Assembly: GCA_004524545.1 (NCBI GenBank)
Contig: SDNX01000010.1
Location: forward strand, 1-43,292
Source: Promethearchaeota archaeon
GTDB lineage: Archaea; Asgardarchaeota; Lokiarchaeia; Sigyniarchaeales; Promethearchaeaceae
Reading direction: 5' to 3'
DNA length: 43,292 bases
Shown here: one piece after another, positions 24,712 through 43,202 of the stretch
Numbering within the stretch: position 1 is the stretch's first letter
How the letters are laid out: each line of letters opens with the position of its first letter
Notes under the pieces: model-generated
What the model was told of the DNA's origin: nothing
The model's input: only the letters and a program-made list of their open reading frames with translations
Database searches by the model: none
Position numbers and translations under genes: made by a program

Positions 24712-26547
24712 TTAGTCTGAAAATAAAATTTCGTCCCAAGGTTGACGATAAAGGGAACTCCGCTGCCTTTTTTGGTCAAATATGTGACCCATCATACCGA
24801 TTGAACGACCTAAAACAAACAAACCATTTAAAGTTTCACTGAGAATTACATCTTCAATTTCTTCGGGTGTGAATTCTAAGTTTTCCAACATATCCAAGAA
24901 TGCAATGCCGATACATCCATCTACGTTTAATATAAGGTTATTTCTCTTTGAAGTGGTTAAAATTTCAACCTCTAAAGCGAAATCCAAATGAGGATGTTTC
25001 TCAAAATTTTTAATTACGAATTCTTTTAAGAGTGTAACTCGCACATCCGGGTTCTGAAGAGATTTAATCCTATGACCAATTCCAGGGATATTGATCTTCA
25101 CTTCATTTTTCATGTAAGTAATGAATTCTTTAGGCTGCATTTTTTTAAGAAGTGCTTCTCGGAAATATTTTGCGGCATCTGAGATGGCTCCTCCAAATCG
25201 AGGACCAATAGTGAGAATTCCACTTGCGAGAGAAGACATTAAATCCTTCCCTGCTCTGGAGGTTATTATGGAGTTATGAGCCCCAGAAACTGCTGGACCA
25301 TGGTCAGCGGTCAACTTCACAACCATCTCGATGAATTGCTGAGCAAATTCTGGCAATTCACGTTTAAACCAAAGTAACCCGATGACATAACCAATAGATT
25401 TGTTTTCCTCAATGATTTTATCCAAACCAATTTTGTGAAATCTCGGAACATCTCCACGATCATCCGAAATCGTTACAACCACATCAGTTGGGCGTCGGAT
25501 TAATCCTTGTTTTACTGCATCACTGTAATCTATCGGAATTTTAGGGGGTTCAAAGTCTTCCGCTGGTTTTAATGTACCTTTTTTCACTAAAGATTCATAT
25601 GTTTCTTTGATTTTTACATCAAAATCATCATATGATTCGGGAACAATTGCACCTGCTTCTTTGAGTGCAGTGTTTTTCGCTTCTGCAGTTTCTTTGGAAG
25701 ATCCTGCCATTGCTCCTGCATGACCGAATTGTAATCCTTTCGGAAGAATTCGTGCAGCAGTTCCAGTCACCCACATAACTAATGGTTTGGTAATTCTCTT
25801 GGATTTCAATGCATCGACAATGTTATATTCGTCAGTCCCTCCAATTTCCCCTAGACAAACTATCATTTTGATAGCAGGATTTTGTTCATATCTCATAACA
25901 TGATCCATTAATGAAGATCCAGGGTATCTATCTCCACCAATTGCAATCCCTTCGTAAATCCCATCAGTATTTTGAGAGACCATGAAATACATTTCATTAC
26001 TCATACCTCCAGACTTAGATACGAATCCCACCGAACCCGGACGATACAGTTTACTTAACTCGATATTTTCCAAAGTTCCAGCAGCATTTCCGATCTTGAA
26101 TGCTCCCGCTACTAAGCCACCGACGGTCGCAGGTCCAATTATAAATTTCTTATTTTTTTCTGCGGATTGGATTAATAGTCGTGCTTGTCTTTCTGGAACA
26201 CCTTCTGCAATAATCACAACAGTTCTGATGGTTTTAGATTCAAGAGCTTCCATACTTGTTTCGAATGCAGAACGGAAAGATGCGAAATTGATCAGCACAT
26301 CAGCAGTCGGATGTTTATAGGTAGCGTACTCAAGGGTTTTATAAATCGGAATAACTATTTCTGTAGCGCCATAAAATACTTTATGATATGCCACTGCTGA
26401 AGTTTGAGTTGGTTGAATAATTGCAGCAACACTTGGAGTATCTCGTTTTGAAATAAAATCAAAATCCAACATTCTTTGAACTGCAGCTGCCTGTAGTCCG
26501 TAAATTATTGCCTGAGTCTGTCTATCAAATAATTCGTAGTCTTTCAT
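24712..26547 (-). CDS. aclA: ATP-citrate lyase, large subunit (SCS-alpha-like plus citrate synthase-like)
   Basis: This 611-aa subunit cleaves citrate with CoA and ATP to acetyl-CoA and oxaloacetate, together with the ATP-grasp subunit. The N-terminal 330 residues are succinyl-CoA-synthetase-alpha-like, with SKSGGMSNEM and the phosphorylated histidine in QFGHAGAMAGSS (His276). The C-terminal part is the citrate-synthase-like citryl-CoA lyase module: DHGPAVSGAHNSIITSRAGK, SGILTIGPRFGGA, IPGIGHRIKSL, EILTTSKRNNLILNVDG and LFVLGRSIGMMGHIFDQKR. From memory these blocks are nearly the same in human ACLY. Its ATG overlaps the aclB stop by 4 nt with GAGGAGGGT upstream. Naming follows Chlorobium; in plant nomenclature this is ACLB. 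Confidence 0.96.
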   Translation of the reverse strand: MKDYELFDRQTQAIIYGLQAAAVQRMLDFDFISKRDTPSVAAIIQPTQTSAVAYHKVFYGATEIVIPIYKTLEYATYKHPTADVLINFASFRSAFETSMEALESKTIRTVVIIAEGVPERQARLLIQSAEKNKKFIIGPATVGGLVAGAFKIGNAAGTLENIELSKLYRPGSVGFVSKSGGMSNEMYFMVSQNTDGIYEGIAIGGDRYPGSSLMDHVMRYEQNPAIKMIVCLGEIGGTDEYNIVDALKSKRITKPLVMWVTGTAARILPKGLQFGHAGAMAGSSKETAEAKNTALKEAGAIVPESYDDFDVKIKETYESLVKKGTLKPAEDFEPPKIPIDYSDAVKQGLIRRPTDVVVTISDDRGDVPRFHKIGLDKIIEENKSIGYVIGLLWFKRELPEFAQQFIEMVVKLTADHGPAVSGAHNSIITSRAGKDLMSSLASGILTIGPRFGGAISDAAKYFREALLKKMQPKEFITYMKNEVKINIPGIGHRIKSLQNPDVRVTLLKEFVIKNFEKHPHLDFALEVEILTTSKRNNLILNVDGCIGIAFLDMLENLEFTPEEIEDVILSETLNGLFVLGRSIGMMGHIFDQKRQRSSLYRQPWDEILFSD

Positions 26548-27824
26548 TTTTTACCCTCCTCTTTTTGAATTAGGGAAACTATGTGAGTCATGTGTGAGTA
26601 CCTATCAAAGACTTTTATCGGGACGCCAGTTTTGATTCCAATTTCACGCATAAGATCAAGTCCCGCTTTTTCATTTGGACCACCTCGTCGCACATAAATT
26701 TTCACATTTGCTTTTTTAAGTTTTTCAGCCGACTTAGTGATTGCATTGGTTATTCCAATAAAAGTAGCTCTAACATCTGTGAAATTAGCGATACCTCCTC
26801 CAATAAGCAAATATTTGTACTTTCCTTTTTGGGCAGGATATTTACACATCAAATCGATCAATGTTTGAGCATAAATCTCTGTGTGTTCCATTGTTGGGTT
26901 ACCTGAATATTCACCATAATTGCCCAATTCAGCACCATAACCAAGGTCTGCAACGGTGTCGGTATATATCACAGATGCTCCACCACCAGCAACCATGGTC
27001 CAGATTCGCCCCTTTGGATTTAGTATGCGTAGTTTCAAAGAAGCACCTGTTTTCTCGTCTAATTTTTGGATCATTTCTTCTTCGTCAGTAAATTCTTGAC
27101 CGAATCCAGCTGGAAATTCGATTTCTTTGCCCCATGTATCAGCATGAAGGAAGGCTGCTGTGTCATCTAATCTGGCTTTCACATCTAAAGGAACGATTTG
27201 GTTATCTTCAGTTATCGCAAATGGATTTAATTCCAGAAAAGTGAAATCTTGTTCCACAAATACTTGATAGAGACCTTTAATAAATGGAACTATGATATCT
27301 CCAATTTTACCAAGTTTAGGAAGGTTTACTTTTAAATTAAAGGAGGCAATATCGGTTCCGAAAGGAATTTCTATGTGAGTTACTTTATCCCAATTCTCCT
27401 CAATGAAAATTCCCCCTTCTAAGGAGAAATGGATTGTGTCCCCATCTCGATCGGTAGTAAAAGAAACATAATATTCCTTTTCATGAGGAATAAAAGGTTC
27501 GACTAACATTCGTTCGAGTTTGCCCTTCAGGTTCCCGATTTCACAAAAATTATCGAGTTTCTCAATGCAAAACTCTTTCATTTCATCGCAACCTGCGTCG
27601 AGTAAAATAAGGTTTGCCTTACCACGTTTTCCAAATAGTTGATCTGGTTTAGCCACTACCTTTTCTTCTTTTACCCAGGAGTTCTCCTCAATGATTTTAT
27701 CAATATCAGTATCGCAATCTATAACGACTAACTTATTGTGATATTTCCATTCAGGGTAATATTTCGGAAGCTCTGAAGCAATTATTTTTTTCGCTGCAGC
27801 TTCATAAATCGATTTACTGGCCAT
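26544..27824 (-). CDS. aclB: ATP-citrate lyase, ATP-grasp subunit
   Basis: The 426-aa ATP-grasp/SCS-beta-like subunit, which binds ATP and citrate. Visible: KPDQLFGKRGKANL (nucleotide site), EPFIPHEKEYYVSF, FLELNPFAI, LDVKARLDDTA (metal-binding aspartate region), then the citrate-binding domain with NPKGRIWTMVAGGGASVIY, LGNYGEYSGNP, LLIGGGIANFTDV and YVRRGGPNEKAGL. Length and motifs agree with the plant small subunit (ACLA) and with the N-terminal half of animal ACLY. It precedes aclA with an ATGA overlap, the same order as in green sulfur bacteria. The leader AGAGTGTAAAAAATG closely matches that of the citrate synthase gene at 39253. Confidence 0.96.
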   Translation of the reverse strand: MASKSIYEAAAKKIIASELPKYYPEWKYHNKLVVIDCDTDIDKIIEENSWVKEEKVVAKPDQLFGKRGKANLILLDAGCDEMKEFCIEKLDNFCEIGNLKGKLERMLVEPFIPHEKEYYVSFTTDRDGDTIHFSLEGGIFIEENWDKVTHIEIPFGTDIASFNLKVNLPKLGKIGDIIVPFIKGLYQVFVEQDFTFLELNPFAITEDNQIVPLDVKARLDDTAAFLHADTWGKEIEFPAGFGQEFTDEEEMIQKLDEKTGASLKLRILNPKGRIWTMVAGGGASVIYTDTVADLGYGAELGNYGEYSGNPTMEHTEIYAQTLIDLMCKYPAQKGKYKYLLIGGGIANFTDVRATFIGITNAITKSAEKLKKANVKIYVRRGGPNEKAGLDLMREIGIKTGVPIKVFDRYSHMTHIVSLIQKEEGKK

Positions 27825-30635: not shown

Positions 30636-32357
30636 ATGACGAGATCTGTAAATTTGGCAATCAGTGGTCAAGCAGGTCAAGGTATAGCCACCGTTGAATC
30701 ACTATTAACAAAAGCACTTAAGAGATCTGGATTGAATGTGTTCGCATCACGCGAGTATATGAGTAGAGTCCGGGGAGGAATTAATTCTACAGCAATTAGA
30801 GTATCTTCTCAACCCGTGCATGCATTCGAAGATAGAATTGATATTCTTATTCCATTAAGTGATGAAGCAATTCCTCATCTACAGCATAGAATGACCAATA
30901 ACACCTTAGTAATTGGAGAAAAAGCTTTTCTAAGTATGGATTTATTGCTTTCATTCATTTCAATAGAAGTCCCGTTTACAGAACTTGCGAAGGAAATCGG
31001 GAGTATATTATATTCTAATATAATTGCACTTGGTGTAATTTCCTCCATATTCAAAGTTGAAAGACAAATTTTGCATGATCTTATAGAATTCACATTTCTT
31101 AAGAAAGGAGACAAAGTAATTCAACCTAATAAGAGTGCAATCAATAAGGGGTATGAAATCGGTGCAGAACTTGAGGACAAATATGAAATCCTCAAAAAAT
31201 TTTATATGAACAAGAATCCCGAGATAAAAAATGATTTAATCTTGGACGGTACAGAGTCGATAGCCTTAGGTGCAATTGCGGGTGGGGTTCAATATGAATG
31301 CTTCTATCCTATGGCGCCTTCAACTGGAATCGGAACTTTTCTAGCACAACAAGCATCAAAGTTTGGATTAATTGTAGACATGAGTGAGGATGAGATTAGT
31401 GTTATAAATAAAGCATTGGGAGCATCCTATGCAGGAGCTCGCTCACTCGTAACTACATCTGGTGGAGGGTTCTCCCTAATGACTGAAGCCATAAGTCTTG
31501 CAGGAATGCTAGAATTACCTATTGTCGTGGTTGTAGGGCAACGTCCTGGTCCTGCGACGGGGATGCCCACTAGAACAACTCAAGAAGATTTACGATTAGT
31601 GCTCCATGCAGGTGCAGGATTCTTCCCTAGAATCATATTTGCACCGGGATGTATTGAAGATTCGTTCTATCTCACTCAAAAAGCGTTTGATCTTGCCCAA
31701 AAGTATCAAGTTCCTGTTTTTATTTTGACCGATCAATACCTTGTGGATTCCTATTACAATTTACCCTTTCTAAATCTTGATTCCTTAAAGAATGAAAAAT
31801 TCATTGTAAAAACTGATAAGGATTATCAGCGATTTAAATTCACAAAATCTGGAATATCTCCAAGAGGAATACCTGGATACGGCGAAGGTTTGGTTGCGGC
31901 GGATTCCCACACTCATACAGAGGCGGGAATGATATCTGAAGACCCCGAAATTCGAGAAAAGTCTGTGGAAAAGCGATTGAAAAAGCTGAAACTAATAAAA
32001 GATGCTTCTATCCCACCAGAATTCATTGGAGATGCGAATAAAATAAAATATCAGATTGTTAGCTGGGGGAGTACATATTATATCATAAAGGAAGCATTAG
32101 ATAAAATAAACCGAAGTGATATTGGATTCCTTCATTTCAGTCAAGTATATCCAATCCATGAATCAACGAAGGATTACTTAAAAAAAGCGAAAATTAACAT
32201 AATGGTGGAACAAAATCCTACGGGTCAGTTTGCGAACCTCATTGAAAACGAGATCCATATACAGATTGATAAAAAAATTCTCAAATACAGTGGGTATACA
32301 CTATCTGTGGAGGATATAGTCGCTCAGATAACAGATGCAATTAATGGAGGGAATTAA
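30636..32357 (+). CDS. korA: 2-oxoacid:ferredoxin oxidoreductase, fused gamma-alpha subunit (2-oxoglutarate type)
   Basis: A 573-aa fusion. Residues 1-190 are the gamma domain (ISGQAGQGIATVESLLTKAL, then EYMSRVRGGINSTAIRVS); residues 205-573 are the alpha domain with the pyrimidine-domain motif YPMAPSTGIG (usual YPITPST), the TTSGGGFSLM loop and GPATGMPTRTTQEDL. This gamma-alpha fusion is the usual layout of two-subunit archaeal and Kor-type enzymes. The reaction is oxidative decarboxylation of 2-oxoglutarate to succinyl-CoA with ferredoxin, or the reverse. The specificity is inferred from the neighbours sucCD, sdhAB and icd; other 2-oxoacids cannot be excluded. No ferredoxin (delta) subunit gene is nearby. 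Confidence 0.9.
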   Translation: MTRSVNLAISGQAGQGIATVESLLTKALKRSGLNVFASREYMSRVRGGINSTAIRVSSQPVHAFEDRIDILIPLSDEAIPHLQHRMTNNTLVIGEKAFLSMDLLLSFISIEVPFTELAKEIGSILYSNIIALGVISSIFKVERQILHDLIEFTFLKKGDKVIQPNKSAINKGYEIGAELEDKYEILKKFYMNKNPEIKNDLILDGTESIALGAIAGGVQYECFYPMAPSTGIGTFLAQQASKFGLIVDMSEDEISVINKALGASYAGARSLVTTSGGGFSLMTEAISLAGMLELPIVVVVGQRPGPATGMPTRTTQEDLRLVLHAGAGFFPRIIFAPGCIEDSFYLTQKAFDLAQKYQVPVFILTDQYLVDSYYNLPFLNLDSLKNEKFIVKTDKDYQRFKFTKSGISPRGIPGYGEGLVAADSHTHTEAGMISEDPEIREKSVEKRLKKLKLIKDASIPPEFIGDANKIKYQIVSWGSTYYIIKEALDKINRSDIGFLHFSQVYPIHESTKDYLKKAKINIMVEQNPTGQFANLIENEIHIQIDKKILKYSGYTLSVEDIVAQITDAINGGN

Positions 32358-32358
32358 T

Positions 32359-33213
32359 ATGAGTGATAATTTTGATAAAGATGTAAAGATCCATTGGTGT
32401 CCAGGTTGCGGGAATTACAGCGCACTTCGTATCGTAAAAGAGTCCTTAACTGAGCTTAAATTCGAACCAAAGGATATTGTGATTGTGAGCGGGATTGGTC
32501 AAGCGGGTAAGTTTCCCCACTTCATGACAGCGAATTTTTACAATGGTTTACATGGTAGATACCTTTCAACGGCATTAGGCGTTAAAGCAGCCAATCCTAA
32601 TTTGGAAGTAATAGCTATCTCGGGAGATGGATGCACATTGAGCGAAGGGGGTAACCATTTTCTTCATACTATTCGATATAATCCTAATATCACTAACCTC
32701 ATAAGCAATAATTCAGTGTACGGCCTCACCAAAGGACAGGCTTCACCAACGAGTATGTTAGGATTTAAAACAAAAGTCCAAACATTTGGTGTTATCAATG
32801 AACCATTCAATTCACCTGCAGTAGCAATTTCGCTTAATGCATCATTTGTAGCTCGCGCATTTGTGGGAGATATCGAAGAAACAAAAAATATTCTAAAGCA
32901 AGCCATCCAGCACAAAGGTTATGCGTTAATAGATATGTTAAGTCCCTGTGTTTCTTTCAATAAAGTTAACACATTCAAATGGTATAAAGAAAATAGTTAT
33001 TATTTAGAGGATTCTCATAATCCTCTTGATCAAAGTGAAGCAATGAAAGTAGCACTAAACTTGAGAAAATTAGCATTAGGTGTAATTTATAAAAATCCGA
33101 GTAGACCCACCTACGAGGAAAATATCCAAATTTATAATTCAGATTCTCGTCCATTATTTGCACGAGATTTAGATAAAAATAAATTAGAAAAATTAGTAAA
33201 TACATTTCGATAA
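32359..33213 (+). CDS. korB: 2-oxoacid:ferredoxin oxidoreductase, beta subunit (2-oxoglutarate type)
   Basis: The 284-aa thiamine-diphosphate and [4Fe-4S] subunit. WCPGCGN near residue 12 gives two cluster cysteines; the TPP motif starts at [17 protein letters not shown] and ends at [17 protein letters not shown], and the last block is typical of Kor enzymes. Another conserved cysteine is in MLSPCVSF. The start ATG at 32359 lies one base after the korA stop and has GGAGG 8 nt upstream. The following sdhA begins 11 nt downstream, so korAB-sdhAB form one transcription unit. It takes part in the 2-oxoglutarate/succinyl-CoA step of the cycle. Confidence 0.92.
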
Positions 33214-33224
33214 AGGAAGCAAAA

Positions 33225-34937
33225 ATGCGAATAGAAAAATTTGACGCAGTAGTAGTTGGAGCTGGGTTGTCTGGTCTCCGAGCTGGATTGGAATTATCCA
33301 GAGAATGGAATGTGGGTGTAATTAGTAAAGTATATCCCGTTCGATCCCATTCAGGTGCTGCACAAGGGGGAATTAATGCAGCGCTTGGAAATAGACCTGA
33401 TGGTAAGGAGGACACCCCAAAAATTCATGCCTACGATACAGTTTACGGAAGCGATTATCTGGCTGATCAAGATGTAGTTATGTACATGACGGAGGAAGCT
33501 CCTAGGATAGTTGTAGAATTTGAATCTATGGGTACTCCATTTTCTAGATTAGAATCTGGTCTGATAGCGCAGAGACCATTTGGAGGTGCTGGTTTTCCAC
33601 GCACATGTTACGCAGGAGATCGCACTGGACATGCATTGCTACACACCTTATTTGAACAATGCGTCAGACAAGGGGTGAAATTCTATAACGAATATTTTCT
33701 TGTAGATTTGTTCAAAGCAGATGGTCAGATCGCGGGATTGATCGCATTGGATATAAAAACTGGTGAATTTGTATCATTCCGCGCTCCAAATGTGATCTTA
33801 GCAACTGGAGGATTCGGGCGAGTATATAAGGAATCTACGAATGCCCTTATTAACACAGGTGACGGAAACGGTGCTGCATATCGTGTGGGTGTTCCTATGC
33901 AAGATATGGAATTTGTACAAATTCATCCTACGACGCTATACGGATCTAACATTTTAATTTCTGAAGGTGCTCGAGGTGAAGGAGGTCTGCTCTACAATTC
34001 AAAAGGGGAGCGTTTTATGCAGAAATATGCTCCTAAGGCAATGGAACTCGCACCACGAGACATTGTAGCTCGGTCTATCCAAACGGAAATTTTAGAAGGT
34101 CGTGGGTTTGAGGATGCGTATGTCCATTTGGATTTAACTCATCTTGGAAAAAATCGCATCATGGAGAGATTACCCGGAATACGAGAAATTAGCATGTATT
34201 TTGCAGGAGTTGACCCTATTGAAAAACCTATCCCGATTCTGCCCGGTCAACACTACAGTATGGGCGGTATAGGTACAAAATACAATGGAGATTACGGTGA
34301 AACAGAGTTACCAGGTCTATTTGCTATTGGAGAATGCTCATGTTTATCTGTTCATGGAGCGAACCGTTTAGGGGGTAATTCACTTTTAGAAACTTCCGTG
34401 TTTGGAAGATACATTGGTCGAACTCTCTTGAAAAAAGGGAAATCAATTTCAGCATCAGAAGATAGTATCCAGAAGGCAGAAATGGCTGCTCTTTACATTA
34501 TTGAAGAGTTATTAGATAAGTGGAACTCAAATACTGGAAAAAAACCTAATGAAATTAAAGAAAAGATGGGTGAAACTATGAACAGATACTTGTCCGTCTA
34601 TCGCAATCAACCCGATATGGAAAAAGCTTTGAAGATTATCGAAGGTCTTCAACTAGATTTCAAGGATATAAATATTCCCACAACAGAGAGAAAATTAAAT
34701 TGGGGGTTGATTCGTGCTTTAGAACTCCGAAACATGATGGATATTGCAGAAGCCACTGTTAGAGGCGCGATTTGGAGGAAAGAAAGCAGAGGAGCACATT
34801 GGAGAACCGATTATCCTACGAGGAATGATAAGGAGTATCAAGTTCACACAATGATCTATCCGGGTGAAAAAGGTATGGAAATCAAGACTAAACCCGTGAA
34901 ATTAGGTATTTTTGAAACAAAGGAGAGGAAATACTGA
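33225..34937 (+). CDS. sdhA: Succinate dehydrogenase / fumarate reductase flavoprotein subunit
   Basis: A 570-aa flavoprotein. [16 protein letters not shown] binds [18 protein letters not shown] carries the histidine (His42) that binds FAD covalently in the family; [29 protein letters not shown]-like [22 protein letters not shown] and [12 protein letters not shown] are the active-site blocks. The C-terminal helix region [18 protein letters not shown] is also standard. The start ATG has AAGGAAG upstream. Its stop overlaps the sdhB start by one base (TGATG). The direction, succinate oxidation or fumarate reduction, cannot be told from the sequence; the partner acceptor depends on sdhB and any anchor encoded elsewhere. 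Confidence 0.95.
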
Positions 34938-35701
34938 TGAAGGAAACTCAGAAATTTTTGGTCTATCGTAATTCGGGAGAAGGGATTATTCGATATGAGG
35001 GCTATGAAGTTCCACTAAAACCAGGATATACTATTTTAGATGCGTTGTTTTATATCCAAGATCATTTTGATTCAACCTTTGCATTCAGATATTCTTGTAG
35101 GGGAGCAATTTGTGGATCTTGCGGGATAACTGTAGACAAAATCCCTGATTTAGCATGTAAAACTCAAATCTCTGCAGTAAAGACCAAAAGGAATCCTATT
35201 GGTCTGCCTGAATTTCACTTTGGAGAACATCCAAACTGGGATAAAGAGAATGAAATTTTGATAGAACCTTTACCTAACATGCCCGTTTTGAAAGACTTAG
35301 TTGTAAATATGGATAATTTCTGGAAATTCTATGTAGAAGTGCAACCATACTTCACACGGGATTATAATGATGTTGCTCCTGAAAGTAAGCAAAGTCCAGA
35401 AGAAATGAATGCAATTGAACGATTAGTTTACTGTATTGCGTGCGGATTATGTTGGGCGTGCCCTGTAAATGCTACAAATCCACATTATCTGGGTCCCATG
35501 CAACTTGCCAAAGCTGATAGATTCCTTCGGGATTCACGTATTTCAGATGAACATGAAAAAGAAATATTAGAAAGAGTACTGAAGGATGACGGAGTCCTTG
35601 CATGTGAGAAATATTTTGTCTGCAATCGGGTTTGTCCTCGTGGAGTGATGCCCGGCACTGCAATAAATGATATTCGAAAAAAAATGGAAGAGAGAAAGTA
35701 A
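34937..35701 (+). CDS. sdhB: Succinate dehydrogenase / fumarate reductase iron-sulfur subunit
   Basis: A 254-aa subunit with an N-terminal plant-type 2Fe-2S domain (YSCRGAICGSCGI plus a later cysteine in DLACKTQ) and a C-terminal double-cluster domain. The first motif there reads CIACGLCWACPV, i.e. CX2CX2CX2CP, one residue shorter than the common CX2CX2CX3CP; the second is LACEKYFVCNRVCPRG (CX5CX3CP), as usual. About 15-20 extra residues around VQPYFTRDYNDVAPESKQ link the domains. GGAGAGG lies before the start. No gene for a cytochrome b or other membrane anchor follows on this strand; the next gene is a 7-TM protein on the opposite strand. Confidence 0.93.
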   Translation: MKETQKFLVYRNSGEGIIRYEGYEVPLKPGYTILDALFYIQDHFDSTFAFRYSCRGAICGSCGITVDKIPDLACKTQISAVKTKRNPIGLPEFHFGEHPNWDKENEILIEPLPNMPVLKDLVVNMDNFWKFYVEVQPYFTRDYNDVAPESKQSPEEMNAIERLVYCIACGLCWACPVNATNPHYLGPMQLAKADRFLRDSRISDEHEKEILERVLKDDGVLACEKYFVCNRVCPRGVMPGTAINDIRKKMEERK

Positions 35702-36670: not shown

Positions 36671-38059
36671 ATGGAATTTCGTACCGAAAAAGATGTATTA
36701 GGAGAAGTAAAAGTACCCGTGGATGCTTATTGGGGGGCCAATACGCAACGTGCAATCGAAAACTTCAATATCAGCGGCAAGCGATTTCCTACTGTTTTTA
36801 TTCTTTCCTTGGCGGAATTAAAAAAAGCATGCGTACAGGCAAATCGAGAACTAAAACTCATTAAAGAGGGAGATTATGAAGCAATTCTGGCAGCAATAGA
36901 TGAGATTATACTCGAAAAAAAACTTCTTGATCAATTTCCTGTTGATGTTTTCCAATCAGGGAGTGGAACCCAAACAAATATGAATATGAATGAAGTTTTA
37001 GCTAATCGTGCAAATGAAATTTTGGGTCATCTCTTAGGAAAAAAGTACCCAGTTCATCCTAATGACCATATAAATATGGGTCAATCTTCAAACGACGTAA
37101 TTCCAAGCGCTATGCATATTTCTACGATACATTTACTGAAAGAGAAACTCATTCCTGCTTTAGATACAATTACAAGTTTTCTTGGAAAAAAAATACGCGA
37201 ATTTGAAGGTATTATTAAAGTTGGACGCACTCATCTTCAAGATGCAGTTCCTATTCCCTTAGTAATGGAATTTGATGTATATAGGACTCAACTTCAAAGA
37301 GCTAAAGCAGAGATTAAGCGTGTTTTGAATGATTTATCATATATTCCAATCGGTGGTACTGCTGTGGGAACAGGTCTAAATACTCACGGCGAATTTGCGA
37401 GTCTCGTTGTAGCGAATTTAACTAAAATCACGGAAGTTGCTTTTAAAATAAAATCCACAAAAGCTGAGGATATTGCTTCCCATAATACCTTGGTGCAAGT
37501 AAGTTCTCGATTACGTTCTATTGCTCTATCCGCCTTCAAAATGGCAAATGATATACGATGGATGGGTAGTGGTCCACGAGCAGGATTATCAGAACTAATA
37601 CTCCCTCAAAATGAGCCTGGTTCATCAATCATGCCAGGAAAAATCAACCCTACACAATCTGAAATGCTAATTCAAGTCGCAATTCAAGTAATTGGAAATG
37701 ATGCAACAATAACTCAAGCAGAAGCTCATGGGAGTATATTAGATTTGAACGTTTGTAAACCCTTAATGATTTACAATCTTTTGGAGTCAATTGAACTCTT
37801 ATCAAATGGGATCACATCTTTTGCAGAAAATTGCTTGAGTGACCTAAAAGTCAATGAAAAACACATCAATTCACAATTAGACTCACTATTGATGACAATC
37901 ACAAGATTAACACCCATTATTGGATATGACAAATGTGCCCAAATTGCACAAAAAGCGTATCGTGAAGGAAAAACAATTAAAGAAGTTATTTTAGAGGAAA
38001 AAATCAAAATAAAAGGAAATTTAGATGAATTATTGGATCCGAAAAATATGGTAGGATGA
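36671..38059 (+). CDS. fumC: Fumarate hydratase, class II
   Basis: A 462-aa oxygen-stable class II fumarase interconverting fumarate and malate. The N-terminus FRTEKDVLGEVKVPVDAYWG, the block SGSGTQTNMNMNEVLANRA, HPNDHINMGQSSNDVIPSA, KVGRTHLQDAVPIP, and the fumarase/aspartase signature GSSIMPGKINPTQ are all present. The C-terminal domain has the usual YDKCAQIAQKAY and EGKTIKEV. It is followed 6 nt later by the FMN enzyme, so both are probably on one message. Confidence 0.95.
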   Translation: MEFRTEKDVLGEVKVPVDAYWGANTQRAIENFNISGKRFPTVFILSLAELKKACVQANRELKLIKEGDYEAILAAIDEIILEKKLLDQFPVDVFQSGSGTQTNMNMNEVLANRANEILGHLLGKKYPVHPNDHINMGQSSNDVIPSAMHISTIHLLKEKLIPALDTITSFLGKKIREFEGIIKVGRTHLQDAVPIPLVMEFDVYRTQLQRAKAEIKRVLNDLSYIPIGGTAVGTGLNTHGEFASLVVANLTKITEVAFKIKSTKAEDIASHNTLVQVSSRLRSIALSAFKMANDIRWMGSGPRAGLSELILPQNEPGSSIMPGKINPTQSEMLIQVAIQVIGNDATITQAEAHGSILDLNVCKPLMIYNLLESIELLSNGITSFAENCLSDLKVNEKHINSQLDSLLMTITRLTPIIGYDKCAQIAQKAYREGKTIKEVILEEKIKIKGNLDELLDPKNMVG

Positions 38060-38065
38060 AAACAA

Positions 38066-39124
38066 ATGTCAAATGAAAAGCTCACTTTAGAAGATGTTCG
38101 TGATCAAGCGAAGGTAAAATTGAAAGGAATTTGTGGAGTGTACAAGATCTGTGATGGAGATCCAAGCCGTCTTTGTCAAAGACATTCATATGGAGGACCT
38201 CTTGGAATCGGAGGTATAGGAAGCGGAGCCTCCTTTACTAACAATGTTCTTGCATTGAAAAAAATCAAGTTGAAAATGCGCTTGGTAGGAGAAACATTCG
38301 AACCCGATACATCTTATTCATTTTTTGGGAATGAACTTTCAATGCCTATTATGGCAGCAAGTACTGCAGGAGTCACTAGTTTCGGTGGAGATGGGGTGAT
38401 AACTGAAGAAGAGTTTTGTAAAGCGGTTGTTCTTGGTTGCAAGGATGCTGGTACAATCGGGTGGCGAGGCCATAGTTGGAACTACTCGTTAGAAACACCT
38501 CATGGTCTTAACGCAATAAATGATGCAAATGGATTTGGGGTCAAAATTTGCAAACCGATAGAACAAGAAAAAATTATTCAATACTACAAAAAAGCAGAGG
38601 AAATTGGTGCAATCGCAGTTGGAGTGGATATAGATGGTGCCGGATCGGTCGCAATGCCTAAGAATGGTAAACCTGTGTATCGTAAAAGTCCTGAAGATAT
38701 ACGAGATTTAGTCAAAGCAACGTCTCTCCCAGTTATCATCAAAGGAGTAATGACAGTTGAAGACGCCCAAATTGCGATGAATGCTGGTGCTGCAGCAATT
38801 GTTGTCTCTAATCATGGGGGGAGAGTGCTTGATTTTACTCCGGGAACTGCAGATGTCTTACCTAAAATTGCTGATGCAGTTAAAGGAAAAATCAAAATTA
38901 TTGTGGACGGAGGAGTGAGAACGGGCTATGATGTCCTTAAAATGCTTGCGTTAGGGGCAGAAAGCGTCCTTATCGGACGGGATATAATCCGAGCTGCAGT
39001 TGGTGCAGGAAAATTGGGTGTAAAGCTTCAGATGGAACATTTAATGATTACTCTGAAAAAAGCAATGTTAATGACCAATTGCAAAAATCTGAAAGAAATT
39101 ACTTCCGAAGTAATGGAAACGTAA
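38066..39124 (+). CDS. FMN-dependent alpha-hydroxyacid dehydrogenase family protein
   Basis: A 352-aa TIM-barrel flavoenzyme of the glycolate oxidase/lactate dehydrogenase family. The FMN lysine lies in VIIKGVMTVEDA; the catalytic histidine and substrate arginine in VVSNHGGRVLDF; the FMN-phosphate loop in VDGGVRTGYDVLKMLALGA and LIGRD. The N-terminus has cysteines at about 23, 29 and 37 and GIGGIGSGASFTNN, a pattern I associate with the poorly characterised anaerobe (clostridial) branch. The substrate is unknown. It is 6 nt after fumC and before citrate synthase, where malate dehydrogenase would be expected, so malate is a candidate substrate by position only. Confidence 0.82.
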   Translation: MSNEKLTLEDVRDQAKVKLKGICGVYKICDGDPSRLCQRHSYGGPLGIGGIGSGASFTNNVLALKKIKLKMRLVGETFEPDTSYSFFGNELSMPIMAASTAGVTSFGGDGVITEEEFCKAVVLGCKDAGTIGWRGHSWNYSLETPHGLNAINDANGFGVKICKPIEQEKIIQYYKKAEEIGAIAVGVDIDGAGSVAMPKNGKPVYRKSPEDIRDLVKATSLPVIIKGVMTVEDAQIAMNAGAAAIVVSNHGGRVLDFTPGTADVLPKIADAVKGKIKIIVDGGVRTGYDVLKMLALGAESVLIGRDIIRAAVGAGKLGVKLQMEHLMITLKKAMLMTNCKNLKEITSEVMET

Positions 39125-39252: not shown

Positions 39253-40530
39253 ATGTCAAAATTACCAAAAGATACGCAATATTCCAATGTAGTTTTAGAA
39301 GATTATGAAGAACCATCAGCAGAGCTCTGCTTGCGATGTATGAATAGGACGTTCAAAGGGCTTGTGGGAGTCTATGTTGATGAAAGCAAAATTACAAAAA
39401 TCGATGGAGAGAATGGAAAATTATTCTATCGGGGATATTCATTAGAGGAGTTGGTGGAGAATTCAACCTTTGAAGAAGTAGCTTATCTTCTTATTCATGG
39501 GCTCTTACCTACAAAAACTGAATATGAGGAATTTTGTAAAATACTCGTCAGTGAACGAGATATCCCAGATCCTATATTAACCATCTTAAAAAGTTATCCT
39601 AGGAATACTACTCGCATTGAATTATTAAGAACATCTGTCTCTGCACTAGCATTATATGATCCAGATGATTACGATTACTCCGAAGAAGCAAATATTAGAA
39701 AAGGATTACGAATTATCGCTAAAATTCCAACGATTTTAGCGTTCTCTCATAGAATCCAAGAGAATTTACCTATAGTTGAACCAGATCTCACTGGAGAATT
39801 AAGCCATGCTGGTAATTATTACTATATGATGACGGGTAACAAACCCACGAAAGAATTCGCGGATGTATTTGATAAAATTCTTATTTGTCATGCAGATCAT
39901 TCAATCAATTCATCGACTTTCTCTTGTAGAGTTACTGTATCTACATTATCAGATATTTATTCAGGAGTAACCAGCGCAATTGGAACATTACGAGGTCCAT
40001 TACATGGAGGAGCTAATGAACGTGTGGTAAAAATGCTTCTCGAAGAAATAAAAACAAAAGATAATGTAATACCTTACATTAAGAAGAAACTCGAAAACAA
40101 CGAAAAAATAATGGGAATGGGTCATAGAGTTTATAAAACTTGGGATCCAAGAGCAAAAATCCTCAGAAAATTTTCGAAAGATCTTTGGGAGAAGGAAGAA
40201 GCAGGAGTACTTGATAAAATCCCTGATCGAGAACACGAGGAACATAAAGACAAGATTGACAATTTATTCGAAATGACGGATATGATAGCAAATTATATCA
40301 TTAAAGAGAAAAAAGGAAAAATCTATCCTAATGTAGATTTATACTCTGCAGGGTTATTGCATGTCATGGGGAGTCCCACTCCGCTATTTACACCTCTCTT
40401 TGCAGCAGCTCGTTCAGTCGGGTGGGTCGCACAAGCTATAGAACAATTAGCTGATAATAAGCTCAGTCGACCTCGATTACGGTATGTTGGTGAGTTGAAG
40501 AAGAAGTACTTAAAAATAGGGGGACGCTAG
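39253..40530 (+). CDS. gltA: Citrate synthase
   Basis: Condenses oxaloacetate and acetyl-CoA. The 425-aa protein shows LRGPLHGGANE (histidine), GMGHRVYKTWDPRA (histidine) and YPNVDLYSAG (catalytic aspartate). It is about 40-50 aa longer than typical archaeal enzymes: the N-terminal 30 residues are extra (with CLRCMNRTF) and a charged stretch near KIPDREHEEHKDK enlarges the helical region before the aspartate motif. The start ATG has no strong ribosome binding site. It is followed by aconitase after 5 nt. It coexists with ATP-citrate lyase, which does the reverse. Confidence 0.94.
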   Translation: MSKLPKDTQYSNVVLEDYEEPSAELCLRCMNRTFKGLVGVYVDESKITKIDGENGKLFYRGYSLEELVENSTFEEVAYLLIHGLLPTKTEYEEFCKILVSERDIPDPILTILKSYPRNTTRIELLRTSVSALALYDPDDYDYSEEANIRKGLRIIAKIPTILAFSHRIQENLPIVEPDLTGELSHAGNYYYMMTGNKPTKEFADVFDKILICHADHSINSSTFSCRVTVSTLSDIYSGVTSAIGTLRGPLHGGANERVVKMLLEEIKTKDNVIPYIKKKLENNEKIMGMGHRVYKTWDPRAKILRKFSKDLWEKEEAGVLDKIPDREHEEHKDKIDNLFEMTDMIANYIIKEKKGKIYPNVDLYSAGLLHVMGSPTPLFTPLFAAARSVGWVAQAIEQLADNKLSRPRLRYVGELKKKYLKIGGR

Positions 40531-40535
40531 AAAAA

Positions 40536-43202
40536 ATGAACACAATGGATACAATCCACTCAAAAACCATAGAGAAATTGCCCACAAGCATGGGCAATGT
40601 TAAAATTTTCAACATTAAGAAACTTGAGGAGCAAGGTTTAGGAAAAATAAGTAAGCTCCCCTATTCTCATCGAGTGTTACTAGAAAACATCCTTCGGAAT
40701 CTGGATGGAAAATTAGTCACTAAAGAACATTTGATGGCTATGTGTGAATGGGACTGTAAAAGCGATACTCCTTCCGAAATTGCATATATACCGTCTCGAG
40801 TTTTACTTCAAGATTTTACCGGAGTCCCAGCTGTAGTAGATTTAGCAGCTTTGCGTTCTGCTATGAAACGCGCGGGAAAAAACCCAGCGGATATTAATCC
40901 TTTGAACCCAGTCGATCTAATTATCGATCACTCGATTCAAGTGGATTTCGCGGACTCCAAAGATGCCCTAGAGAAAAATGAAGCTAAGGAAATGGAGCGA
41001 AATCGAGAACGCTATGTGCTCTTGAAATGGGCTCAAGAGCAATTAGAAAACTTTCGAGCCATCCCGCCCAGCCAAGGAATTTGCCATCAAGTGAATTTGG
41101 AATATTTGGGAAAAGTGGTTCACAAACGAGTGGTTAATGGTGAGGAATTAGCGTTCCCAGATACGTTAGTCGGGACGGATTCACACACCACAATGATTGA
41201 TTGTTTAGGTATCGCGGGTTGGGGTGTAGGTGGAATCGAAGCGGAAGCAGTTATGCTCGGACAACCCTATTATATGAATATTCCCAAAGTTATCGGTGTG
41301 AAAATGGTTGGAAAACCGAAAGAAGGAATAACTGCAACAGATATTGTTCTAGTTATTACCCAAAAACTCCGTGAACAAGGTGTGGTTGATAAATTCGTAG
41401 AATTCTACGGACCTGGCTTGAAAGAGCTATCCCTCCCTGATCGAGCTACTATTGCCAATATGGCGCCAGAATGCGGTTCGACGATGAATTTTTTCCCTGT
41501 GACCGAAGAGACACTTAGATATCTTATATCTAGCGGTCGAGATGCAAAATATGTAGAATTCATTGAGACTTACTTAAAGCATGTTGGTCTGTTTTACACG
41601 GACGAAGCTCCCACTCCCGACTACAGTGAGATTTTGGAATTTGATCTTTCTGAAGTTGAACCTAGTTTATCAGGTCCAAAACGACCACAAGACCGAATTA
41701 AACTGAAAGACATGAAAATAGCTTTTCATGAAACCATGAAAACTTATCTGAAAAAAGCGGATGAGTTGGATAAAATTTCGGATGGAACCACATTAGATAA
41801 TGGGTCAATTGTAATTGGAGCAATTACATCTTGCACAAACACCTCAAATCCCTCTGTGATGATAGGTGCGGGATTATTAGCACGGAACGCCATCCAGAAA
41901 GGCTTGAAAGTACAACCCTTTGTAAAAACATCTTTCGCTCCGGGTTCCCGAGTAGTTGCAGATTATATGAAAGATTCCGGATTAATGAATTATTTAGAGC
42001 AATTAGGCTTTTACTTAGTTGGATTCGGATGCACATCTTGTATTGGAAACAGCGGTCCATTAGATCCAAAAATAGTGAGGGAAATTCGTGAGAGAAACCT
42101 GGCAACTGCTTCAGTCTGTAGTGGTAATCGGAATTTTGAGGGGAGAATTAGTCCTTATGCTCGAACAAACTATTTGGCATCCCCTCCTTTGGTGGTTGCA
42201 TTCTCTATTGCGGGTACTGTGGCTATTGATTTAGAAAATGAACCCTTAGGAACATCTTTGGATGGAAGTCCCGTATTTTTAAAAGATATTTGGCCGGATA
42301 CCAAAGAAATTGAGGAAATACAAACTAAGTATGTTACACCCGAATTATACAAAAAAGAATACGGAAGCATCACCGGAAATGATCTCTGGAATAATCTGCA
42401 AGTACCAACTGATAAAGTATTTCAATGGGAAGAAGATTCCACGTATATCCGAGAACCCCCATTCTTTGTAGATTTTCCCACAGAGACCCCTCCATTGCAA
42501 AATATAAATAATGCTCGAGTTTTAGCACTAGTTGGAGATAGCGTAACGACAGACCATATTTCTCCTGCAGGTGCAATTCCGAAAGATATGCCAGCAGCGG
42601 ATTACTTAATCTCACATGGTGTAAAACCCGAAGATTTCAATTCCTTTGGTTCAAGAAGAGGAAATCATGAAGTTATGATGCGTGGAACATTTGGAAATAT
42701 TCGGATACGTAATTTACTGGTGAATAAAGAAGGAGGATGGACGGTATATCATCCAACTGGTGAGGAAATGCCAATCTACACTGCAGCAATGAAATATATT
42801 GAAAATGCGACCCCATTAGTTGTATTAGCAGGAAATGACTACGGAATGGGTTCATCTCGTGATTGGGCTGCAAAAGGTACTTGGTTACTGGGAGTTAAAG
42901 CTGTAATTGCAACATCATATGAACGAATTCATCGAAGTAACTTAGTTGGTATGGGTGTCCTTCCTTTAGAATTCAGAAAAGGAGAAAGTGCACAATCCCT
43001 AGGGTTGGATGGAACAGAAACTATCTCAATTTCCGGAATCGATACTGTGAAACCCTTGTCTGAAATTGATGTTAAGGCAAAAAAAGGGGATAAGATCATC
43101 AATTTCAAAGTTTTGGTTCGATTGGACAGCCTTGTAGATGTCGAGTACTATCAGAATGGCGGAATCTTACATACTGTTCTTAGAAATATATTAAAAAAAT
43201 AG
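40536..43202 (+). CDS. acnA: Aconitate hydratase (AcnA/IRP type)
   Basis: An 888-aa [4Fe-4S] enzyme interconverting citrate and isocitrate, normal length for AcnA/IRP1. LLENILRNLDG, RVLLQDFTGVPAVVDLAA, LVGTDSHTTMIDCLG and GWGVGGIEAEAVMLGQP open the protein. Cluster cysteines are in ITSCTNTSNP and in FGCTSCIGNSGPLD. The C-terminal swivel domain has DSVTTDHISPAGAI, FGSRRGNHEVMMRGTFGNIR, YGMGSSRDWAAKG and SYERIHRSNLVGMGVLPLEF. It is read with citrate synthase, whose stop lies 5 nt upstream, and ends the plus arm of the cluster. Confidence 0.96.
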   Translation: MNTMDTIHSKTIEKLPTSMGNVKIFNIKKLEEQGLGKISKLPYSHRVLLENILRNLDGKLVTKEHLMAMCEWDCKSDTPSEIAYIPSRVLLQDFTGVPAVVDLAALRSAMKRAGKNPADINPLNPVDLIIDHSIQVDFADSKDALEKNEAKEMERNRERYVLLKWAQEQLENFRAIPPSQGICHQVNLEYLGKVVHKRVVNGEELAFPDTLVGTDSHTTMIDCLGIAGWGVGGIEAEAVMLGQPYYMNIPKVIGVKMVGKPKEGITATDIVLVITQKLREQGVVDKFVEFYGPGLKELSLPDRATIANMAPECGSTMNFFPVTEETLRYLISSGRDAKYVEFIETYLKHVGLFYTDEAPTPDYSEILEFDLSEVEPSLSGPKRPQDRIKLKDMKIAFHETMKTYLKKADELDKISDGTTLDNGSIVIGAITSCTNTSNPSVMIGAGLLARNAIQKGLKVQPFVKTSFAPGSRVVADYMKDSGLMNYLEQLGFYLVGFGCTSCIGNSGPLDPKIVREIRERNLATASVCSGNRNFEGRISPYARTNYLASPPLVVAFSIAGTVAIDLENEPLGTSLDGSPVFLKDIWPDTKEIEEIQTKYVTPELYKKEYGSITGNDLWNNLQVPTDKVFQWEEDSTYIREPPFFVDFPTETPPLQNINNARVLALVGDSVTTDHISPAGAIPKDMPAADYLISHGVKPEDFNSFGSRRGNHEVMMRGTFGNIRIRNLLVNKEGGWTVYHPTGEEMPIYTAAMKYIENATPLVVLAGNDYGMGSSRDWAAKGTWLLGVKAVIATSYERIHRSNLVGMGVLPLEFRKGESAQSLGLDGTETISISGIDTVKPLSEIDVKAKKGDKIINFKVLVRLDSLVDVEYYQNGGILHTVLRNILKK

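Follow-up and report, generated by a model that had tools for sequence, protein, structure and literature searches.

A 43,292-nt stretch of Lokiarchaeal DNA (the window) contains a cluster of citric acid cycle genes in the order KorA, KorB, SdhA, SdhB, a membrane ORF on the other strand, FumC, FMN_dh, citrate synthase (CS) and aconitase (Acn), and raises the question of how malate is oxidised in this organism. A sequence-only reading of the window had observed that malate dehydrogenase was the only cycle step without a gene, and had proposed from gene position that the FMN-dependent alpha-hydroxyacid dehydrogenase encoded between fumarase and citrate synthase (FMN_dh) oxidises malate. Here, we show that this enzyme belongs to the FMN_dh family and has a TIM-barrel fold, and that its clade is associated with citric acid cycle genes, both statistically and in several lineages. 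With malate as the inferred substrate, FMN_dh is a good candidate for a type of malate dehydrogenase that has so far been overlooked; it is not the sole malate dehydrogenase candidate in this organism.

The source genome is Lokiarchaeal and comprises 2.55 Mb in 154 contigs (76% complete); G001 (JAFGBS01) is a relative of the same genus. The features of the window are collected in Table 1. FMN_dh is separated by 128 nt from the citrate synthase gene, which is followed by aconitase. Upstream of the cycle cluster, SucCD-like genes are also found on the other strand, with the genes for AclA/AclB. The presence of ATP-citrate lyase and citrate synthase in one cluster region provides genes for both directions of citrate turnover. 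The hydrophobic ORF between sdhB and fumC matches no Pfam or NCBIfam family, and is missing from the equivalent site in G001 and in another relative, G030.

Table 1. Genes of the window and codons of signature residues in FMN_dh
Feature	Position	Strand	Remarks
AclA/AclB-type ATP-citrate lyase subunits	24712-27824	-	
KorA-KorB, two-subunit 2-oxoacid:ferredoxin oxidoreductase	30636..33213	+	Profile confirms KorA
SdhA, succinate dehydrogenase/fumarate reductase flavoprotein	33225..34937	+	Profile
SdhB, succinate dehydrogenase/fumarate reductase iron-sulfur subunit	34937..35701	+	Profile
Hydrophobic ORF, 261 aa	35725-36510	-	
fumC, class-II fumarase/aspartase family	36671..38059	+	fumC_II 570 bits, aspA 462; neither curated cut-off reached
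FMN-dependent alpha-hydroxyacid dehydrogenase-family protein, 352 aa; proposed acceptor-linked malate dehydrogenase	38066..39124	+	
Cys23 codon, first Cys of N-terminal Cys motif (Cys23, Cys29, Cys37)	38132..38134	+	Clade-invariant
Tyr26 codon; aligns with canonical substrate-binding Tyr	38141..38143	+	
Cys29 codon	38150..38152	+	
Cys37 codon	38174..38176	+	
Cys118 codon, clade-specific	38417..38419	+	66/66 clade, 2/52 outside
Arg134 codon, clade-specific, candidate second-carboxylate ligand	38465..38467	+	66/66 clade, 0/52 outside
Lys226 codon, flavin-site Lys	38741..38743	+	
His250 to Arg253 codons, catalytic base and substrate-carboxylate Arg	38813..38824	+	
Citrate synthase	39253..40530	+	Profile; adjoins FMN_dh in relatives too
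Aconitase AcnA	40536..43202	+	Profile

The FMN_dh protein and its signature residues

The FMN_dh ORF is intact, starts with ATG and begins after a gap of 6 nt from the fumC stop. Its product scored 206 bits against the Pfam FMN_dh profile (PF01070; cut-off 24.9) and retains the catalytic motifs IIKG (K226) and SNHGGR (H250 and R253), bearing out the earlier description of an FMN hydroxyacid dehydrogenase with intact His, Arg and Lys directly behind fumC. Conservation rules out a chance or degenerate ORF, as close orthologues are 63–75% identical over the full length. The sequence-only reading had named a lactate- or isopentenyl-diphosphate (IPP)-type active site as evidence that would tell against it. 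These identities were rejected, the scores falling far under the equivalog/exception cut-offs for LldD (132 vs 550) and L-lactate oxidase (113 vs 645) and under that for type-2 IPP isomerase (TIGR02151; 58 vs 281 bits). Pre-mycofactocin synthase MftD (TIGR03966; 127 vs 471 bits) was rejected likewise, and the profile search gave no match to the malate dehydrogenase Mqo (PF06039). A literature search returned nothing that identifies a gene of the FMN_dh clade or the malate dehydrogenase gene of Desulfobacter.

Canonical members of PF01070 (glycolate oxidase/HAO1, LldD, flavocytochrome b2 and mandelate dehydrogenase/oxidase) share with the window protein the TIM barrel, the flavin-site Lys, the His-x-x-Arg motif and the Asp. 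Sequence alignment to solved FMN hydroxyacid enzymes was good for the C-terminal half only. The structure model, which was built from a deeper alignment than a first model (pLDDT 78), is a TIM barrel with a pLDDT of 91.3, which Foldseek matched best to entries for HAO and mandelate oxidase (TM 0.73–0.79). When the protein was aligned to LldD and two further canonical enzymes, Lys226, His250, Arg253 and Tyr26 fell on their canonical counterparts, whereas equivalents of glycolate-oxidase Tyr129 and Arg164 are missing (the aligned positions are V/Y/T and V/C/F, in a loop of uncertain alignment) and the long LldD loop is deleted. The window protein adds an N-terminal Cys stretch and Arg134, and its clade differs further from the canonical members in its cycle-gene operons and, in bacteria, its rubredoxin-like fusions.

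A scan of 84,980 species genomes for relatives of FMN_dh, and a tree of 78 proteins built by a quick method, delimited a clade (branch SH-aLRT 93) made up of Loki-, Hod-, Sif- and Heimdall-type Asgard archaea, Desulfobacteraceae and one Spirochaetia MAG. The proteins L120, L128 and L152 were absent from the ORF calls; L120 and L128 were examined by hand, and the bacterium L120 was assigned to the clade by signature residues, outside the tree. Thirteen residues are common to all 66 distinct clade members: Cys23, Tyr26, Cys29, Cys37, Cys118, Arg134, Tyr140, Lys163, Asp188 (which pairs with the His), Ser194, Lys226, His250 and Arg253.

The sister group in the tree consists of ‘alpha-hydroxy-acid oxidizing proteins’ of 335–340 aa from Clostridia, Nitrospirota and Desulfovibrionales, which are 43–48% identical and have the N-terminal Cys region and the core in common with the clade. 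The two differ in their cysteines: the outside group carries C-x2-C-x2-C-x4-C, whereas the clade keeps three of these Cys (Cys23, Cys29 and Cys37) and gains Cys118. Position 26 is Cys in 50 of the 52 sequences outside the clade, and Arg134 is found in none of them.

By strand assignment and sequence alignment, Arg134 would lie where an early strand of the barrel ends; in canonical members, this region lines the flavin and substrate site. The proposal to model the active site for a second carboxylate-binding residue therefore yields a candidate, placed by strand and alignment: an arginine fixed at this site throughout the clade would suit the binding of a second carboxylate on the substrate, and Arg134 may be its ligand.

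The C-x2-C-x2-C-x4-C spacing resembles iron-sulfur ferredoxin motifs. It is shared by approximately 50 relatives from Clostridia, Nitrospirota and Desulfovibrionales (L121–L171), suggesting an iron-sulfur cluster in these proteins; we know of no description of such a cluster in this FMN_dh family. Three of the outside relatives (L151, L165 and L166) have Tat-like signals.

Gene neighbourhoods in Lokiarchaea and beyond

Full-length FMN_dh was present in 15 of 59 genomes, including the source genome, and two or three more copies were cut by contig ends; the full-length copies of the other genomes share 64–75% identity with the window protein. In all 14 of the other Lokiarchaeal genomes with a full-length copy, fumC lies immediately upstream in the same orientation. 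Gene order is KorB-SdhA-SdhB-FumC-FMN_dh-CS-Acn in G030, FumC-FMN_dh-CS-CS-Acn in G037 and KorA-KorB-SdhA-SdhB-FumC-FMN_dh-Acn in G001. FumC itself was found in 28 of the 59 genomes. In the corresponding two-by-two table, where G042 was scored as having FumC on the basis of a fragment at the edge of a contig, 17 genomes have both genes, one has FMN_dh only, 12 have FumC only and 29 have neither (Fisher 2.6e-6; because the genomes are related, this p-value overstates independence).

Citrate synthase was detectable in only three of the 14 genomes, and so a full cycle is not the only context in which FMN_dh occurs. The pairing with fumC holds even in Lokiarchaeal genomes without citrate synthase, which favours malate as the substrate. 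In the closest relative, G001 (locus L065; 91% complete), aconitase follows FMN_dh without an intervening citrate synthase, and no citrate synthase was detected elsewhere in the genome.

Outside Lokiarchaea the partners vary within the cycle. KorA-KorB-FMN_dh occurs in Hodarchaea, in Desulfocicer and in eight of eight Desulfobacter-like genomes examined, FMN_dh-CS-Acn in one Heimdall MAG and FMN_dh-CS-Icd in Sifarchaeum, and in Desulfobacula citrate synthase lies close to FMN_dh. The distant bacterium L120 has the order SdhA-SdhB-FumC-FMN_dh, the first three proteins being only 36–51% identical. Overall, a cycle gene lies within three ORFs of FMN_dh at 20 of 25 clade loci, against one of 52 outside the clade; the remaining five clade loci have no cycle gene nearby. 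In the family of Desulfobacter latus, an FMN_dh orthologue was present in 41 of 59 sampled genomes. The Spirochaetia MAG Bin_56_1 (L108) encodes an Asgard-type FMN_dh that lacks the rubredoxin-like domain of the other bacterial clade members, reflecting either recent transfer or mis-binning.

Malate dehydrogenase candidates in FMN_dh genomes

The view that malate dehydrogenase was the only cycle step without a gene holds within the window and fails for the genome. A full-length Ldh_2 gene (PF02615, malate/lactate-type; 388 aa) lies on contig G000:C146:149-1315, and the best solved relatives of its product were deposited as malate dehydrogenase (3i0p and 1v9n). Contig C146 begins with 35 bases that, once reverse-complemented, match the window's first 35 bases exactly, which places Ldh_2 at about -1279 to -113 in window coordinates, on the + strand and approximately 0.1 kb beyond the left end. 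In the sister genome G001, Ldh_2 comes after the gene orthologous to the first ORF of the window; this synteny and the perfect 35-bp overlap of the ends exclude a contaminant contig as the source. The step looked empty because the window ends approximately 0.1 kb short of Ldh_2, and the argument from an only missing step therefore does not apply to this organism.

The suggested search for NAD- or quinone-type malate dehydrogenases thus recovered Ldh_2, whilst neither an Ldh_1 malate dehydrogenase, malic enzyme nor Mqo was found in the 76% complete source genome, and Mqo was absent from all 24 genomes searched. Of the paired observations that the sequence-only reading had set against itself, a canonical mdh elsewhere in the genome together with no malate activity of FMN_dh, the first exists in the form of this Ldh_2-type gene. 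In this organism, an Ldh_2-type NAD(P) malate dehydrogenase probably coexists with FMN_dh. Ldh_2 is present in 49 of 59 relatives and is far commoner in the order than FMN_dh. Many Lokiarchaeal relatives (G010, G026, G034, G050, G051 and others) have a pair of closely spaced Ldh_2 genes, a hint that their substrates differ.

Other genomes offer FMN_dh as the sole candidate. Leaving out the source genome, 12 of 23 FMN_dh genomes, some of them incomplete, gave no match to the three families searched, Ldh_1_C, Ldh_2 and Mqo (those of L103, L104, L105, L108, L109, L110, L111, L113, L114, L118, L119 and L120); for MAGs, such absences may reflect assembly gaps. The 12 include two isolates, Desulfocicer vacuolatum DSM 3385 and Desulfobacter latus AcRS2, and a Lokiarchaeal MAG (L103) in which a 793-kb contig contains the complete operon. 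A modified citric acid cycle is reported as the route of acetate oxidation in Desulfobacter species (PMC2702500, PMC9768450), which therefore need a malate oxidation activity.

Proposed function and electron transfer

Our data are consistent with a model, which we favour with somewhat better than even confidence, where FMN_dh is a divergent FMN-dependent 2-hydroxyacid dehydrogenase that takes (S)-malate from the neighbouring fumarase and oxidises it to the oxaloacetate used by citrate synthase. What we infer here extends to the substrate, the roles of Arg134 and the cysteines, the acceptor and the direction of the reaction. Three observations make malate the best fit: in Lokiarchaea and L120 no fixed partner is closer than fumarase, citrate synthase recurs as a downstream partner, and genomes without conventional malate dehydrogenases exist. 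Against malate stand the Ldh_2 gene of the same genome and the missing equivalents of Tyr129 and Arg164. The putative malate role first read from gene position is therefore strengthened by the recurrent pairing with fumC, korAB and citrate synthase and by the 12 genomes, and tempered by the coexisting Ldh_2.

The KorAB partner makes 2-hydroxyglutarate the main rival substrate. An L-2-hydroxyglutarate dehydrogenase would recycle 2-hydroxyglutarate, which malate dehydrogenase forms as a by-product, to 2-oxoglutarate, on which the adjoining KorAB acts. Such a repair role would account for the coexistence with Ldh_2 and for the tight KorA-KorB-FMN_dh runs of Hodarchaea, Desulfocicer and Desulfobacter, and 2-hydroxyglutarate is likewise a dicarboxylate, so that Arg134 fits. 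However, this leaves unexplained the fumC partner in Lokiarchaea and L120, often without an adjoining KorAB, as well as the citrate synthase partner in other lineages, and 12 genomes would then have no malate dehydrogenase from any of the families searched; we consider it unlikely. Equally unlikely, in our estimation, is a 2-hydroxyacid dehydrogenase of general or lactate type, supplying 2-oxoacids to KorAB or central metabolism and placed among cycle genes through co-regulation only. The superfamily is that of lactate, glycolate and mandelate oxidases, and two-subunit KorAB enzymes can accept a range of 2-oxoacids; yet the protein scores far under the equivalog thresholds of LldD, L-lactate oxidase and MftD, the clade-specific Arg replaces small residues, and the fixed fumC pairing is hard to account for.

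A slightly more doubtful reading is that Ldh_2 carries all malate flux and that the FMN protein catalyses a different flavin reaction (for example redox-sensing or isomerase-like), co-transcribed by chance. The Ldh_2 gene, 38 kb away in the same genome and with best matches annotated as malate dehydrogenase, is in keeping with this, as are the altered active site and Cys motif of the FMN protein. The Lys, His, Arg and carboxylate-binding Tyr are nevertheless invariant in 66 of 66 clade members, FMN_dh genomes exist in which no conventional malate dehydrogenase was found, and an isomerase-like role sits poorly with a type-2 IPP isomerase score about a fifth of the cut-off.

In the proposed malate oxidation, His250 would take the hydroxyl proton from malate and hydride would pass from malate to FMN. 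The C1 carboxylate would be held by Arg253 (with Tyr26), and the C4 carboxylate may be held by Arg134. An iron protein would then reoxidise the reduced FMN in one-electron steps, namely the fused rubredoxin-like domain in Desulfobacteraceae and a separate carrier in Asgard archaea. The malate step would thus be NAD-independent and thermodynamically biased towards oxaloacetate. In these respects the proposed enzyme would resemble Mqo, which belongs to an unrelated FAD protein family; Ldh_2 and Ldh_1 (PF02866) share the presumed overall reaction and differ in having unrelated folds and nicotinamide cofactors. In the source organism, the coexisting Ldh_2-type enzyme could serve the reverse direction, and two enzymes, one NAD(P)-linked and one iron-linked, for the two directions of the malate step is one possible reading.

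If the malate model is correct, FMN_dh fills the malate dehydrogenase gap in acetate-oxidising sulfate reducers and several Asgard archaea, and the last oxidation of the cycle can use an iron-linked flavin enzyme rather than NAD or quinone enzymes. The direction of the Asgard cycle would also be constrained, as the step would favour oxaloacetate despite the ATP-citrate lyase and ferredoxin-linked KorAB of the cluster, and a function would be gained for a large protein group annotated just as ‘alpha-hydroxy-acid oxidizing protein’.

The acceptor is suggested by relatives. Every Desulfobacteraceae clade member examined, and L120, has an N-terminal CxxC...CxxC domain that Pfam calls rubredoxin/rubrerythrin-like (E 3.6e-15 in L120; 1.4e-5 in L118, under the curated cut-off); the window protein and all Asgard clade members lack it. 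By analogy with these fusions, reduced FMN would pass single electrons to an iron centre, and the acceptor-dependent, one-way malate oxidation envisaged by the sequence-only reading would fit them. The malate/oxaloacetate couple lies near -0.17 V and rubredoxins near 0 V, and so oxaloacetate formation would be the favoured direction. A true rubredoxin domain (E about 1e-14) is present in more distant FMN_dh proteins of ANME-2/Methanoperedens and Methanomassiliicoccales, including the fusions L128:826-2082, L172:7728-8957 and L174:391-1620. The L128 fusion is directly downstream of an aspartase/fumarase-family gene, and the L172 fusion is near an aconitase gene on the other strand.
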